NCBI GenBank assembly: GCA_026075535.2
Contig: AP026548.1
Location: 10,139,997 to 10,203,996 of the forward strand
Reading direction: 5' to 3'
From: Tricholoma matsutake
Taxonomy: Eukaryota > Basidiomycota > Agaricomycetes > Agaricales > Tricholomataceae
DNA length: 64,000 bases
The first letter of the stretch is position 1, and every line of letters begins with the position of its first letter. Below are positions 4,171 to 64,000 of this stretch, in pieces. A program made the position numbers and the translations under genes. The notes under the pieces are model-generated. The model worked only from the letters and a program-made list of their open reading frames with translations, searched no databases and was not told where the DNA came from.

Positions 4171-6594
4171 GTGAATCGTACGCCCTCACTGCCTGTCCAT
4201 AACCGCTTTGAAGTCTTGTCAGTTGAATCCCCGGAGAATGAATCCATTTCTGTGACTGCTCCCCTCTCTGACCCTTCGAAGTTGGCTAAAGACGTACCTG
4301 CTCTCCCCATCTCTCCTTCTACTCCACATCCCAAATTTAAATCATGGGAATGTAAACTACCACGCAAGTATATTGTGGCATCCACTCCCTCTGCACACTC
4401 CTTAAACCTAGCCATCGAACTGCAGACGACCGACACTGGACAGATACTCGGTGTCTCTGCGCTCCTGGACTCTGGTGTGACTGGTCTCTTCATCGATTCC
4501 CATCTGGTACAACAACATCACCTAAATACTCGCTCACTCTCATGTCCGATACCTGTATATAACGTGGATGGATCCCCAAATGAAGCTGGTGCCATCCAAG
4601 AGGTTGCAGACCTGGTTCTCCATTACAAAGATCATAGTGAGTGTGCCCTTTTTGCTGTCACTCAATTAGGAAAGCAAAAGGTGATTTTGGGATATCCATG
4701 GCTTTGAGACCATAACCCAGAGGTCAACCGGCGCACCGGGGAGGTTACCATGAGCCGATGTCCATCCCGCTGTCGGACGTGTTTCACAGAAGCGTTGTGG
4801 ACAGAAGGCGGCAATACGAAGAACTCAGAAGTGTCATGCTGGAGCCCTGCCTATACCTGAAGTGGAATTGGAAGGGGTTCCTGATCTAATGCCGGACTCG
4901 GATGATGATGATGAGGACCCAGAGGAAGTGGAGGAGGGTGATCGGATCTTCTACACTGTGATTCGCTCATCACATGAGGTGTGTGCCACATCGAACATAT
5001 CCCAATGCCTCGCCGAGGCCTTCCACAAAAACAATGCTGCTAAATCCTCTACTAACTCCTTACTCCCTCATCTCCATGAGTTTGAAGACGTGTTCTCCAA
5101 GGAGTCATTCGACTCTCTTCCTGTGCGTAAGCCATGGGATCACGCAATCGAACTCACCCCCGGTGCAACCCCTTCATCCTGCAAGGTCTATCCTCTCTCT
5201 CTGGAAGAACAACGGCAGCTTGACCAGTTCATCGACGAGCACCTGGCCTCTGGACGTATTCGACCATTGAAGTCACCCCTGGCCTCTCCCTTTTTCTTTG
5301 TCAAGAAGAAGGATGGCTCACTTCGACCGGTTCAAGACTACAGAAGGCTCAACAACATCACGGTCAAAAATCGCTACCCACTACCCCTCATCTCCGAACT
5401 CATAAACCAGCTCCGTGGAGCCTGATACTTCACCAAGCTCGATGTCCATTGGGGCTATAATAATGTGAGGATAAAGGAGGGAGATGAGTGGAAGGCAGCC
5501 TTTCGTACCAACCGTGGTCTTTTTGAACCGCTTGTCATGTTCTTTGGCCTTACTAATAGCCCTGCCACCTTTCAGACCATGATGAACGACATCTTCCATG
5601 ACCTCATCCTCAAAGGCGTTGTCTGCATCTATCTCGACGACATCCTCATCTTCACTTGCACGGTTGAAGAGCACTGTCGCATCACGCGCCTCATCCTAGA
5701 GCGACTTCGATGGTACAAACTCTACCTTCGTCAGGACAAATGCGAGTTTGAAAGGACCAAGATCGAGTACCTCGGCCTGATTATCTCGGAGGGTCAAGTG
5801 GAGATGGATCCTATCAAGGTAAACGGGGTCACAGCTTGGCCAACGCCCACGAACAAGAAGGAGGTGCAGTCTTTCCTGGGCTTCATCAATTTCTATCGGC
5901 GTTTTATCAAGGATTTCTCACATCATGCACGACCACTGTTTGACTTGACAGGAAAGGAGGCATGGAGGTGGGATAATGCACAACAGGAGGCGTTCGAAAA
6001 CCTTAAGGAGATGGTCACCCAATCCTTACCTTTGCTGACGATTCGCATCCTTTTCATGTAGAAGCCGACAGTTCTGACTTTGCGACGGGCGCCGTGTTGT
6101 CTCAGCAGTCTCTGGAGGACCAGAAGTGGCATCATGTTGCGTTCTACTCCAAAAGCCTTAGTGCTGTAGAGAGAAACTACGAGATCCATGACAAGGAGAT
6201 GTTGGCGATAATGCGTGCACTTGAGGAGTGGCGACACTTCCTCGAGGGTGCCCAACACAAGGTGGAAATTTGGACAGATCACAAGAACCTCAAGTACTTC
6301 ATGACAGCCAAGAAATTGAACCGTCGTCAAGCTCGTTGGTCCCTGTATCTATCTAGATTCGACTTCTCCTTACACCACTGTCCAGGTTGCAGCATGGGGA
6401 AGACCGATGCCCTATCCCGACGTGCAGACCATGGGGATGGCAGCAGTGACAACCAAACCATTGTGCTGTTGCAGCCAGACCTGTTCACCATTCGGGCACT
6501 GGAAGGCATTGCACCCCAGGGCAAGGAGCGGGACATCCTATGTGACATTCATCGCGCAAACCGTAGCGGTTTACATGAGGATGTTGTCGCCTGA
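4171..6594 (+). pseudogene. pol: pol of element A: protease, reverse transcriptase, RNase H
   Basis: The aspartic protease motif DSGVTGLFID (normally DSGAT) lies near 4468. A TGA after GYPWL (4705-4707) and another after QLRGA (about 5423) interrupt the frame, both at expected Arg codons. Reverse transcriptase is well preserved: FFVKKKDGSLRPVQDYRRLN around 5297, the [10 protein letters not shown] block around 5542, and the catalytic YLDD at 5630-5641. A one-base loss near 6025-6040 shifts the frame before RNase H, which resumes at EADSSDFATGAVL (about 6061) and includes the HDKEMLAI helix and TDHKNLKYF. The section ends at a TGA at 6592, where the related copy C still has CGA. The encoded enzymes would copy element RNA into DNA. 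Confidence 0.9.
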
Positions 6595-8055
6595 GCTGTT
6601 AAAGAACTGAGGAAGGGATCAACCCTTTCCTTACATGTGGCAGAGTGGGCTGAAAAGGAGGACTTGTTGTATTTCAGGGATTGCATCTATGTTCCCAATG
6701 ACCCAGACCTTTGCCGGCGCATCATATCCCAACACCATGACTCACAGATTGCTGGCCACCCTGGACGCTGGAAGACCTTGGAGCTCACCTCACGGAACTA
6801 TTGGTGGCCACAAATGTCACGGCTCATTGGTCAGTATTGTCGCACTTGTGACCTTTGCTTACGCACCAAGGTTCCTCATCGCAAGCCTATTGGTGAGCTA
6901 CACCCTCTTCCTGTTCCAGAGAGTTGTTGGGATGTCGTCAGCATCGACTTTGTGGTGGAATTGCCAGAGTCAAATGGGTTTGATGCGGTGATGTGCACAG
7001 TTGACTCAGTGGGAAAATGCGCTCACTTCATTCCCACTCACACCACTGTCAGTGCCCTAGGTGCCGCTCGACTCTACCTCCACCACGTGTGGAAATTACA
7101 TGGACTTCCTGGTGCCTTCCTCTCGGATTGTGGCCCTCAGTTCATGGCAGAGTTCACTCATGAGCTGTACCGACTCCTGGGGATCAAACTCCTCGCTTCA
7201 ACCGCTTATCACCCACAAACTGATGGCCAGACGGAGCGAGTCAACCAGGAACTGGAGCAGTACATCCGCCTCTTTGTCAATGAACGCCAGGACAATTGGG
7301 ATGATCTCCTTCCTTTGGCCGAGTTCGGATACAACAACCATGTCCATGCTTCCACTCAACAGACCCCTGTCCTCTTAGACACTGGACGACATCCACGCAT
7401 GGGATTTGAACCTCGCCAAACTCCCTCACACATTGAGACAGTGAATGAGTTCACAGAATGCATGAGGGATAGCTTGGAGGAGGCAAGGGCAGCCTTAGCA
7501 AAGGCAAAGGACGACATGGCACGATTTTACAACCAACGCCACTCCCCAACCCCTCAGTACAAGGTTGGTGATCGAGTTTATCTTGACTCCAGTGACATCT
7601 CCACTACACATCCATCCAAGAAACTCGCTCATCACTTCTTGGGACCTTTCCCCATTGTCAAGTGCGTTGGAACACATGCCTATCATCTACGCCTCCCAGC
7701 CTCCATGTCCAGACTCCATCCTGTCTTCCATGTCGTCAAATTGCTTCCAGCTCCCCCAGATCCGTTCCCGGGATGCCATTCACACCCACCACCACCACCT
7801 ACAGTGATCAAGGGAGAACCCCAATATGAAGTTGAGTCAATCTTGGACAGCCATTTGCGTTGAGGAAAACTCCAGTATTTGGTACATTGGAAGGGTTATG
7901 GGTATGAGGAGAACTCATGGGTCGAAGAGTCTGACATAAATGCCCCTTGGTTAGTCAAGGAATTCCACCGACGGCACACTGCTGCACCGTGTCGCATTCA
8001 AGTCATGGACTTTGGTCATATACGATTTCGAATGCATCGGGGCGATGCATCTTAG
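6595..8055 (+). pseudogene. pol: Integrase and chromodomain of element A
   Basis: The frame is open from 6637 to 7860. The zinc-binding HHCC module is visible (HHDSQIAGHPGRW, then CRTCDLC, 6733-6865). The catalytic core has Asp in VVSIDFVVELPES, Asp in LSDCGPQF and Glu in RVNQELEQY, after YHPQTDGQTE. The C-terminal region continues to HLR, then a TGA at 7861, where Arg or a similar codon is expected. The frame continues as a chromodomain, LQYLVHWKGYGYEENSWVEE, to a TAG at 8053. Chromodomains guide integration to modified chromatin. Copy C carries the same TGA before the chromodomain, so that stop predates the split of the two copies. Confidence 0.9.
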
Positions 8056-13125: not shown

Positions 13126-13380
13126 TAAGTAATGTGGATTCATGGTCACTTGTTTGGCTATCTCGATCTCATGAGTACAACTGCTTTCAGTCATGTGATC
13201 TCTTCCGAGTAAGTAATGTGGATTCATGGTCACTTGTTTGGCTATCTTGATCTCATGAGTACAAATGCTTTCAGTCATGTGATCTCTTCCGAGTAAGTAA
13301 TGTGCATTCATGGTCACTTGTTTGGCTATCTTGTATCTTACTCTCATAAGTACAACCACTTTCAGTCATGTGATCTGTTC
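13126..13380 (+). repeat. Minisatellite array 2, three 84-bp units
   Basis: TAAGTAATGTGGATTCATGG recurs at 13126, 13210 and 13294, an exact 84-bp period. The second half of every unit repeats the array 1 core, GAGTACAACTGC with CAGTCATGTGAT. A single degenerate core follows at about 13627. Confidence 0.88.
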
Positions 13381-38330: not shown

Positions 38331-39146
38331 TAAAAAAATGTTAGTAATTGAAAAGAATAACAGTGAAAATACTTACAGATGTTACATAGAGTGAAATGGG
38401 GTAGGGTCAATGCAAGTTCGGCAGGTTCCCATGTGTTGCATGATTGTGCTTGTTACAGTTCTCAATGTGTTCATGCCTTCTGGCTTGACTGGATATCTGG
38501 ACTCTTTATTCTATCATCTCCTATGCCATGCAAGAGTCTGATGCCAGTCACTGGTCACTATCATGAAGCAATTGATTTTAACAGATGTTTGTTCTTATGT
38601 AAAAGGATCCATAAAGTGAAGTGCTCAATTTGGTAGGATTATGTAATGAGGTGCTCAACCCCAAGTCAACCATGAGTCAACTGTGACCCTGTATGTATCC
38701 AGATTTGACTTCTCCTTGCACCACTGTCCAGGTCGCAGCATGGGGAAGACTGATGCCCTCTCCTGATGTGCAGACCATGGGGATGGCAGCGATGACAAAA
38801 CATTGTGTTGTTGCAGCCAGACCTGTTCACCATTTGGGCACTGGAAGGCATTGCACCCCAGGGTGAGGAGCAGGACATCCTACATGACATTCATCATGCA
38901 AACCATAGCAGTTTACATGAGGATGTTGTTGCCCGAGCTGTTATGATTTTCTGTTATCGTAACCCAGGACAACCAGACGTACGCCAGCAAGACTGGGTAC
39001 TTTATTTTTCTGATTCAACTCGACTCACTTCCGATGGGAGACACTTTGACACATGGTGACTCCATGCACCTGAACCCACTCCCACACATGCTGTGGTATG
39101 ACAGCCCCTTGACATGAGGTCCATGACGTCGGACTCTCACAATCAA

Positions 39147-39304
39147 CATGCTGCGCTGCAGCATGTCCTTGACATCGGATCCTTGACATCGGATCCATGA
39201 CATTGGACGCCTCATGCTAGGCATGAGGCTTATCCTTTATTGTTCCCTGACATGCTGCGCCGCAGCACTCCGTGACATCGGACGCCTCATGCGAGGCATG
39301 AGGC
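39147..39304 (+). repeat. Two palindrome modules in the U3 part of the solo LTR
   Basis: Arms CATGCTGC/GCAGCATG (39147-39165) and GCCTCATGC/GCATGAGGC (39209-39229) recur as TGCTGCG/CGCAGCA (39253-39267) and GCCTCATGC/GCATGAGGC (39284-39304). Only the three-base centre of the second palindrome differs (TAG versus GAG). TGACATCGGA occurs between and around them. Confidence 0.88.
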
Positions 39305-39383
39305 CTGTCATTTCTATTGTTCTTTCTATTTTTACTTGATAACAATCCTGCATTCCGATTGGATGATAGGTATCTTCGAACTG

Positions 39384-39390
39384 TATATAA
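39384..39390 (+). promoter_or_regulatory. TATA box of the solo LTR
   Basis: TATATAA preceded by GAACTG, 330 bp before the LTR end. It would start transcripts near 39415, just ahead of the stem-loop row. Confidence 0.55.
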
Positions 39391-39465
39391 GCTGTAGTAA
39401 TACTGCCTGTATTCCTTAGCTTGACCTAATTCAAATAACGGTCTTAGACTCAACCAGAACACTCA

Positions 39466-39672
39466 ACAGCTTAGGAAGCCCCTAGCTGTGATAACTCGAA
39501 CTCGACAGTTGGAAAGCCTCCAACTGTGATACATGAACCGACGGTCTACTCAGAAAGCCTCTGAGTATGGATAGCCGTATCAACGTAGGAAGCACCAAGT
39601 CCCAAACAGAACCCAATACAGTAAGAAAGCCTCTTACTGCAAGAACTGATACAATTGGAAAGCCTCCAACTG
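39466..39672 (+). ncRNA. Row of stem-loops with invariant AAGCC loop
   Basis: Hairpins: 39466-39489 (ACAGCTTAGG/CCTAGCTGT, one bulge), 39505-39527 (ACAGTTGGA/TCCAACTGT, perfect), 39547-39567 (TACTCAGA/TCTGAGTA, perfect), 39619-39639 (CAGTAAGA/TCTTACTG, perfect) and 39652-39672 (CAATTGGA/TCCAACTG, one mismatch). All have the loop AAGCC. A decayed sixth (loop AAGCA) sits at about 39590. Loop centres are 38, 41, 35, 37 and 33 nt apart. Stems differ in sequence but stay paired. This is a structural RNA signal within the transcribed LTR region, not a known gene. Confidence 0.8.
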
Positions 39673-39721
39673 CAACATATGAAGACTAGGCTGAGTTGAG
39701 ACCTATAGTCTTAACACGAGC

Positions 39722-41112
39722 TGTTAAAGAACTGAGGAAGGGATCCACCCTTTCCTTGCATGCAGCAGAGTGGGCTGAAAAGGAGGACTTGTTATATTTC
39801 AGGGACCACATCTATGTTCCCAATAACCCAGACCTTTGCCGGTGCATCATATCCCAACACCATGACTCACAGATTGCTGGTCATCCTGGACACTGGAAGA
39901 CCTTGGAGCTCACCTCACAGAATTATTGGTGGCCACAAATGTCATGGCTCATTGGTCAGTATTGTCGCACTTGTGACCTTTGCTTATGCACCAAGGTTCC
40001 TCGTCGCAAACCCATTGGTGAGCTACACCCTCTTCCTGTTCCAGAGAGTCATTGGGATGTTGTCAGCATTGACTTTGTAGTGGAGTTGCCAGAGTCGAAT
40101 GGGTTTGATGTGGTGATGTGCACAGCTGATTCAGTGGGAAAATGTGCTCACTTCATTCCCACTCACACCACTGTCAGTGCCCTGGGTGCTGCCCAACTCT
40201 ACCTCCACCATGTGTGGAAATTACACAGACTTCCTGGTGCTTTCCTCTCTGATTGTGGCCCTCAGTTCATGGCAGAGTTCAATCGTGAGCTGTACCAACT
40301 CCTGGGGATCAAACTCCTTGCTTCGACTGCTTATCACCCACAAACTGACAGCCAGACTGAGCGAGTCAACCAGGAACTGGAGAAGTACATCCACATCTTT
40401 GTCAATGAATGCCAGGACAATTGGGACGATCTTCTCCCCTTGGCCGAATTCGGATACAACAACCATGTCCATGCTTCCACTCAACAGACCCCTTTCCTCT
40501 TAGACACTGGACCACAATCCATGCATGGGATTTGAACCTCGCCAAACTCCCTCACACATTGAGATGGTGAATGAGTTCACAGAACACATGCAGGATAGCT
40601 TGGAGGAGGCAAAGGCAGCCTTAGCAAAGGCGAAGGATGACATGGCACACTTTTACAACCAACGCCATTCTCCAACCCCTCAGTACAAGGTAGGTGATCG
40701 AGTTTATCTTGACTCCAGTGACATCTCCACTACACGTCCATCCAAGAAACTTGCTCATCACTTCCTGGGACCTTTCCCCATTGTCAAGTGTGTTGGAATG
40801 CATGCCTATCATCTATGCCTCCCAGCCTCCATGTCCAGACTCCACCCAGTCTTCCATGTCGTCAAACTCCTTCCAGCTCCCCCAGATCCATTCCCAGGAT
40901 GCCATTCACACCCACCACCACCGCCTACAGTGATCGAGGGAGAACCCCAATACGAAGTCGAGTCAATCTTGGACAGCCATTTGCGTTGAGGAAAACTCCA
41001 GTATTTGGTGCATTGGAAGGGTTATGGTATGAGGAGAACTCATGGGTTGAAGAGTCTGATGTGAATGCCCCTTGGTTAGTCAAGGAATTCCACTGACAGC
41101 ACACTGCTGCAC
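39722..41112 (+). pseudogene. pol: Integrase and chromodomain of element C
   Basis: The frame runs from HAAEWAEKEDLLYFRD through the HHCC module (HHDSQIAGHPGHW, CRTCDLC), Asp in VVSIDFVVELPES, Asp in LSDCGPQF and Glu in VNQELEKYIH to about 40505. There a small insertion shifts the frame. It resumes at MGFEPRQTPSHIE (40525) and ends at the TGA 40987, shared with element A. The chromodomain (LQYLVHWKGY) follows with a further one-base loss near 41027. CpG sites of element A are very often TpG or CpA here. Confidence 0.88.
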
Positions 41113-63862: not shown

Positions 63863-64000
63863 TTAGGGTTAGGGTTAGGGTTAGGGTTAGGGTTAGGGTT
63901 AGGGTTAGGGTTAGGGTTAGGGTTAGGGTTAGGGTTAGGGTTAGGGTTAGGGTTAGGGTTAGGGTTAGGGTTAGGGTTAGGGTTAGGGTTAGGGTTAGGG
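63863..64000 (+). repeat. Telomere repeats, (TTAGGG)23
   Basis: 138 bp of perfect TTAGGG units run to the window edge with no interruption. This orientation (G-rich strand reading toward the end) is that of a right chromosome end. Confidence 0.98.

Follow-up and report, generated by a model that had tools for sequence, protein, structure and literature searches.

A long terminal repeat (LTR) in the genome of Tricholoma matsutake carries a row of hairpins with differing stems and one shared loop, AAGCC. Is the pairing of these stems selected, and what might the row do for its element? The locus lies in a window of 64,000 nucleotides, which is the whole stretch analysed (contig 11, 10139997-10203996); the genome searched comprises 161,040,721 bases on 13 contigs. 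A telomere-to-telomere assembly of the species has been published (PMC10211490), and window position 64000 is the last base of contig 11, a chromosome end in that assembly.

Six hairpins in a solo LTR

The original prediction had placed five AAGCC hairpins and one decayed copy inside an LTR, downstream of its TATA box and at intervals of 33-41 nt. All six were found on the forward strand. H1 (39466-39489, loop 39476-39480) has nine pairs and one bulged T, and is supported by sequence, fold and alignment. H2 (39505-39527, loop 39514-39518) is a perfect stem of 9 bp, and H3 (39547-39567, loop 39555-39559) and H5 (39619-39639, loop 39627-39631) are perfect stems of 8 bp; these three were also recovered by a shuffle scan. 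H6 (39652-39672, loop 39660-39664), identified from the sequence and from other copies, forms seven of eight pairs, with one A.C mismatch. The decayed member, H4 (39583-39600), was recognised in the same way; it is weak, with the loop AAGCA (39590-39594) and a broken stem in the window copy. Successive loops start 38, 41, 35, 37 and 33 nt apart, and the TATA box, TATATAA, lies upstream at 39384-39390 on the same strand.

The blemishes of H4 and H6 are recent. H4 has a G at 39585 where the other 29 copies aligned have a T, and the H6 mismatch is common only to the window copy, L002 and L020 among the 30 aligned copies.

Such a row is not expected by chance. The segment 39440-39720 has four hairpins that combine a 5-nt loop with a stem of 7 bp or more, three of them with the loop AAGCC. 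Dinucleotide shuffling of this segment (2000 replicates) produced 0.084 such hairpins on average and two at most, never two with an identical loop. The fold z-score of the window array is -3.72.

Two further structures are associated with the array. A terminal hairpin, GTTGAGAC-CTATA-GTCTTAAC (39695-39715, forward strand), was found by the hairpin scan and by RNAalifold; it adjoins the LTR end and is thus U5-IR-like in position. A possible stem enclosing the array, GGTCTT..ACTCA on the forward strand (5' side 39440-39452, 3' side 39692-39703), is paired in nearly all rows of the main alignment described below. It is almost invariant there, so that covariation says nothing about it, and RNAalifold favours the overlapping terminal hairpin.

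The array does lie inside an LTR, as predicted, with the correction that the window copy is a solo LTR, TGTTATG...CTTAACA, of 778 bp (38939-39716, forward strand). Its limits were taken from its TG...CA ends and from the alignment of copies, most of which diverge outside 38939-39716. It is flanked by a 5-bp target-site duplication, CGAGC (38934-38938 and 39717-39721), and interrupts a gypsy pol reading frame, as read from the sequence. The 40 matches scored among 1092 candidates, window copy included, are all 96-100% identical to it; 30 of the 40 were made into loci, and these, the window copy among them, form the alignment of copies. The insertion itself (38934-39721) aligns with L002 across both flanks and with L020 across part of both. 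The same insertion of an LTR in a gypsy element thus seems to be present at three places (the window, L002 and L020), which suggests that the host element, or the segment, was duplicated once the LTR was in place.

The family carrying the array is a chromodomain Ty3/gypsy element (chromovirus) of T. matsutake. This assignment rests on gag, reverse transcriptase, RNase H, SH3_Tf2-1 and chromodomain matches in separate pieces of the full element (L004, L096 and L023), where Pfam gave Chromo at 7.7e-16, Retrotrans_gag at 2.5e-11 and RVT_1 at 1.6e-27, together with RT_RNaseH, RT_RNaseH_2 and SH3_Tf2-1. Upstream of the LTR in L036 (531-800), a frame with Cys/His knuckle-like motifs was also noticed. 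The U3 part of the LTR contains two near-identical palindromes, GCCTCATGC(T/G)AGGCATGAGGC, at 39209-39229 and 39284-39304, both of which sit in a repeated 45-nt block.

Spread of the array and turnover of hairpins

The array is widespread in the genome. Pairs of RAAAGCCTY separated by 15-23 nt occur at 227 places (control 1) and pairs separated by 25-31 nt at 73 places (control 0); the two sets may share loci, and neither count is a number of LTRs. The presumed RNA start region, AGCTTGACCTAATTCAA, occurs 969 times (control 0).

Related subfamilies keep the array on different stems. Depending on the subfamily, the H5 stem is CAGTAAGA/TCTTACTG, CACTAGGA/TCCTAGTG or CAGTAGGA/TCCTACTG, and that of H1, besides the bulged form of the window, AACTTAGA/TCTAAGTT or AACTCAGA/TCTGAGTT. 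Further paired stem types lie outside the main alignment: CAGTTAG/CTAACTG in L091, a GGG-containing H2 in L103, and TACTTAG/CTAAGTA with nine occurrences.

The number of hairpins varies as well: L095 has one extra hairpin, L080 has an extra one with the loop AAGTC, L094 has a repeated block, and L068 and some others carry fewer. H2 and H6 have an identical stem. These gains and losses of units, and the identity of H2 and H6, are what would be expected of a functionless palindromic unit spread by tandem duplication, its pairing a relic of the founding unit; we return to this explanation below with the tests of pairing.

Some candidates stand apart. L085 (1430-1730), a relic resembling an LTR, contains the primer word and a 24-nt palindrome, and its two AAGCC hairpins stand on unrelated stems; it had no other match in the genome except for a shared 50-base end and its own palindrome. 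L093, found by the spacing pattern, has neither primer nor LTR end and is absent from the main alignment. A scan of viral contigs with three motifs gave five records, which were set aside as tandem or coding repeats or, for L100, a CRISPR-like array; by eye, the primer word and these stems were absent from all five. The L100 repeat (6564-6643, an IMG/VR contig) contains GAAAGCCTC, apparently by coincidence. None of the 4227 Rfam models matched 38900-39760 at E up to 1.

Is the pairing of the stems selected?

Of 64 distinct arrays between 285 and 314 nt long, 43 make up the main alignment, A1. Loci L001-L030 contributed 12 of their 30 arrays and the remaining loci 31 of 34, with L048, L076 and L086 excluded; another 25 arrays, of other lengths, lie outside A1. 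The structure of A1 comprises 61 pairs in nine helices. In this structure 96.6% of cells are paired, compared to 30-39% when it is slid, and even the worst-paired helix, H4, reaches 76.7%. Both sides have changed at eight pairs, in 56 cells, compared to one to five pairs and one to six cells in the slid structures. None of 500 shuffles of A1 matched this cell count or the covariation score, but 214 had at least as many pairs changed on both sides and 497 at least as many pair types. RNAalifold recovers the hairpins from A1, with covariation contributing just -2.61 of the -67.55 kcal/mol.

Significant covariation was the evidence that the original prediction had named beforehand, and it was not obtained. 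When the 10,440 pairs of variable columns in these 43 arrays, all from one genome, were compared with 200 null alignments in a tree-based test, none reached E<0.05. Pairs of H1 ranked first and third, and linker columns linked to the subfamilies scored alike.

A second test, the swapping of arms between units, is less open to such linkage. It used 47 distinct AAAGCCT units (330 occurrences in 91 of 98 loci), chosen by that motif and not by the pairing of the outer stem, and mixing different hairpins and different subfamilies. A unit's own arms form 6.23 of seven pairs, compared to 4.75 for swapped arms, a difference reached in 0 of 20000 permutations. When positions in A1 were taken separately, compensation was found at H1 (4 of 20000) and H5 (44 of 20000), and none at H2, H3 and H6 (20000 of 20000 each). 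The lower stem of H3 (ACGG/CCGT) had looked paired; at 13272 of 20000 it was dropped. The prediction that differing stems stay paired therefore holds for the units as a whole, by arm swapping and by the 56 cells compared to one to six when slid; by position it holds for H1 and H5 only.

Rates of change give a more mixed picture. Much of the variation in the arrays falls at CpG sites. Among the 12 rows of the window subfamily, 2 of 58 non-CpG columns vary in linkers, compared to 5 of 83 in stems and 2 of 25 in loops, so that stems are not slower; the contrast of conserved stems with variable linkers was accordingly dropped as proof of selection in this subfamily once CpG sites were separated. 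Over all 43 rows and outside CpG sites, minor bases have a mean frequency of 0.011 in loop columns, 0.039 in stem columns and 0.077 in linker columns, figures to be read with the caveat that most of these arrays were found by patterns fixing some of the loops.

The stems that are not slower in the window subfamily and the negative tree-based test both suit the tandem-duplication explanation. It does not account for the compensatory types of H1 and H5 or the excess pairing of a unit's own arms, nor does it explain why loops outside the search selection are kept (135 of 146) and why the motif stands near 305 of 366 junctions (see below). We regard it as improbable.

Would the selected molecule be RNA? 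G.U pairs exceed A.C pairs by 29 to 13 cells, but by only 11 to 8 distinct variants, which leaves undecided whether the RNA or the opposite strand is the selected one. That indecision would fit repeats that work at the DNA level, for instance by binding a protein immediately after the promoter, and AAAGCCT, the part that changes least, is what such a protein might recognise. Stem arms that change together in the arm-swap test, and the unrelated stems of L085, are left unexplained by DNA sites, and we consider this quite improbable.

The AAGCC loop

The original prediction of an invariant loop stands in large part. In A1 rows, 135 of the 146 loops outside the search selection are AAGCC; the other 11 are AGGCC, AACCC, AAACC, AAATC or AAGCT.

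Dimerisation through the loops, also suggested at the outset, is unlikely, since AAGCC is not self-complementary. Kissing or dimerisation between loops was dropped as a general function on this ground, and because the AGGCT partner is absent from an array-bearing subfamily. The loops could instead contact another stretch of RNA, in a switch or a kissing interaction: AGCCT is complementary to an AGGCT that commonly precedes the terminal hairpin, near the 3' end of the LTR. The L102 subfamily, however, has AAGTTTGAG in place of AGGCTGAG and keeps its AAGCC loops; with the loop's lack of self-complementarity, this makes such pairing very improbable.

A candidate self-primer and its binding site

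In the window, the TATA box starts 32 nt upstream of the primer word TTAGCTTGACCT (39416-39427, forward strand), a candidate self-primer at the presumed RNA 5' end. This word was identified by its complementarity to the 12 nt that follow the LTR in junction loci; behind the solo LTR of the window there is no primer-binding site (PBS) to partner it. Where the copy is a 5' LTR, AA (AT in L035) separates it from a downstream AGGTCAAGCTGATC, the first 12 nt of which are complementary to TCAGCTTGACCT or, with one G.U, to TTAGCTTGACCT.

All 12 pairs form in 21 of 26 junction loci, 10 by Watson-Crick pairs throughout and 11 with one G.U. L007 forms 11 pairs and L078 10, while in L046, L048 and L059 the best match is just 10 of 12 and lacks a TATA box, which is the chance level. 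Of the 21 loci that pair completely, 20 have a TATA match beginning 32 nt upstream of the primer. Random 12-mers compared with 270 nt, G.U allowed, find a complete partner in 5 of 2000 trials; the argument for self-priming therefore rests on the fixed place of both partners together with their complementarity. Covariation is no guide to this pairing, as both primer and PBS are nearly constant.

The exact junction TAACAnnAGGTCAAGCTGATC occurs 366 times in the genome (control 0), and in 305 cases AAAGCCT lies 36-66 nt upstream (control 0). One junction locus outside the 305, L104, has the array too; its H3 is damaged, and the loops of H2 and H6 have changed. The hairpin array is thus located between candidate self-primer and PBS, 50-256 nt downstream of the presumed RNA start, and the earlier guess of a role in priming has gained in substance. 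From this arrangement the elements look self-primed.

Folds of five leaders (L004, L035, L072, L087 and L050) gave mean primer:PBS pairing probabilities of 0.991-0.999. H1, H2, H3, H5 and H6 are all predicted in L035, L072 and L087, with a 6-nt loop for H3 in L072 and the loop AAACC for H5 in L087. In the L004 fold, H2 pairs with H6, replacing both hairpins; the arms can do so because the two share stem sequences. Such cross-pairing would be a possible switch or recombination site.

A probable folded leader domain

We conclude that the array is probably a folded domain in the 5' leader (R-U5) of a self-primed chromovirus. Transcription would start at or near T(T/C)AGCTTGACCT, and the 5' end of the RNA would fold back onto AGGTCAAGCTGA, 2 nt past the LTR. 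The approximately 290 nt between primer and PBS would form a compact multi-branch domain of six hairpins and the terminal U5 hairpin, which may keep primer and template together; release of the primer by reverse transcriptase/RNase H would then follow, as it does in Tf1. The element's own Gag or reverse transcriptase might dock on the constant AAGCC loop, present in about six copies; taken alone, we give this docking step somewhat less than an even chance.

A broader proposal is more tentative: the array may represent an RNA signal of a kind new to retroelements, in which a row of constant-loop hairpins between self-primer and PBS offers multivalent binding and is read by Gag or reverse transcriptase. 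Under the same proposal, and just as tentatively, the array would evolve as entire hairpins are added or dropped and as stems change in a compensatory way around a fixed loop.

Dispersed packaging signals of RNA viruses share a loop motif. The array may be chiefly a multivalent packaging signal in which each AAGCC hairpin would bind a Gag zinc knuckle, its placement between primer and PBS being incidental. A constant loop on changing stems is what a protein target would predict, a CCHH-like knuckle can be read from the sequence in the gag frame, and in RNA viruses multiple dispersed stem-loop packaging signals are described as promoting assembly (PMC6281560). The position of the array between primer and PBS is left unexplained by this reading; we hold packaging as the main role to be possible but rather unlikely. 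It overlaps the docking step of the leader domain, and the chances given to the two are not exclusive.

Comparison with known systems

Self-priming is already known. In Tf1 the 11 bases at the RNA 5' end anneal to the PBS and are cut off by RNase H, between bases 11 and 12 (PMC7175516, PMC10085805); self-priming has been described for Tj1 (PMC4600332) and proposed for Tcn1 of Cryptococcus (PMC7175516). As these sources present the Tf1/sushi group (Tf1, Tf2, Tj1 and, as proposed, Tcn1), it shares with the matsutake element an RNA 5' end complementary to the PBS, a PBS just after the 5' LTR, and CA as the last bases of the LTR. The likeness is one of self-priming layout and of Pfam matches (RVT_1, RT_RNaseH, RT_RNaseH_2, SH3_Tf2-1 and Chromo). 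The matsutake element differs in having approximately 290 nt with six shared-loop hairpins between primer and PBS.

A leader of three duplexes, the 'pretzel', has been described in Tf1 and its fission-yeast kin (PMC10085805). The matsutake leader has a predicted primer:PBS duplex like that of Tf1 and a candidate flanking duplex, GGTCTT..ACTCA with TGAGT..AGACC; no further pretzel-like duplex with the 60 nt after the PBS was consistent in nine loci. The account of the Tf1 pretzel, in the sections consulted, mentions no hairpin array (PMC10085805). The known gypsy element of T. matsutake, marY1, is of approximately 6 kb with a 426-bp LTR (PMC10627285, PMC10211490); host and type are alike, and the LTRs, compared by description only, measure 778 and 426 bp. 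A shared-loop hairpin array was not found in the sections searched of PMC7175516, PMC10085805, PMC4600332, PMC10211490, PMC10627285, PMC2864245 and PMC3601003, among the literature covered. Within that literature, then, the new element is the row of hairpins between primer and PBS.

In the literature searched, what is understood of how self-primed elements bring their RNA 5' end to the PBS comes chiefly from Tf1. The matsutake family would open the rules of such a leader to direct testing, since its copies number in the hundreds, fall into several subfamilies and have naturally gained and lost hairpins. Viral packaging signals are dispersed, whereas the matsutake hairpins stand in one compact row in a retrotransposon leader; if AAGCC is a protein target, this row would be a repeated, constant-loop docking array in a retrotransposon, comparable with those viral signals.
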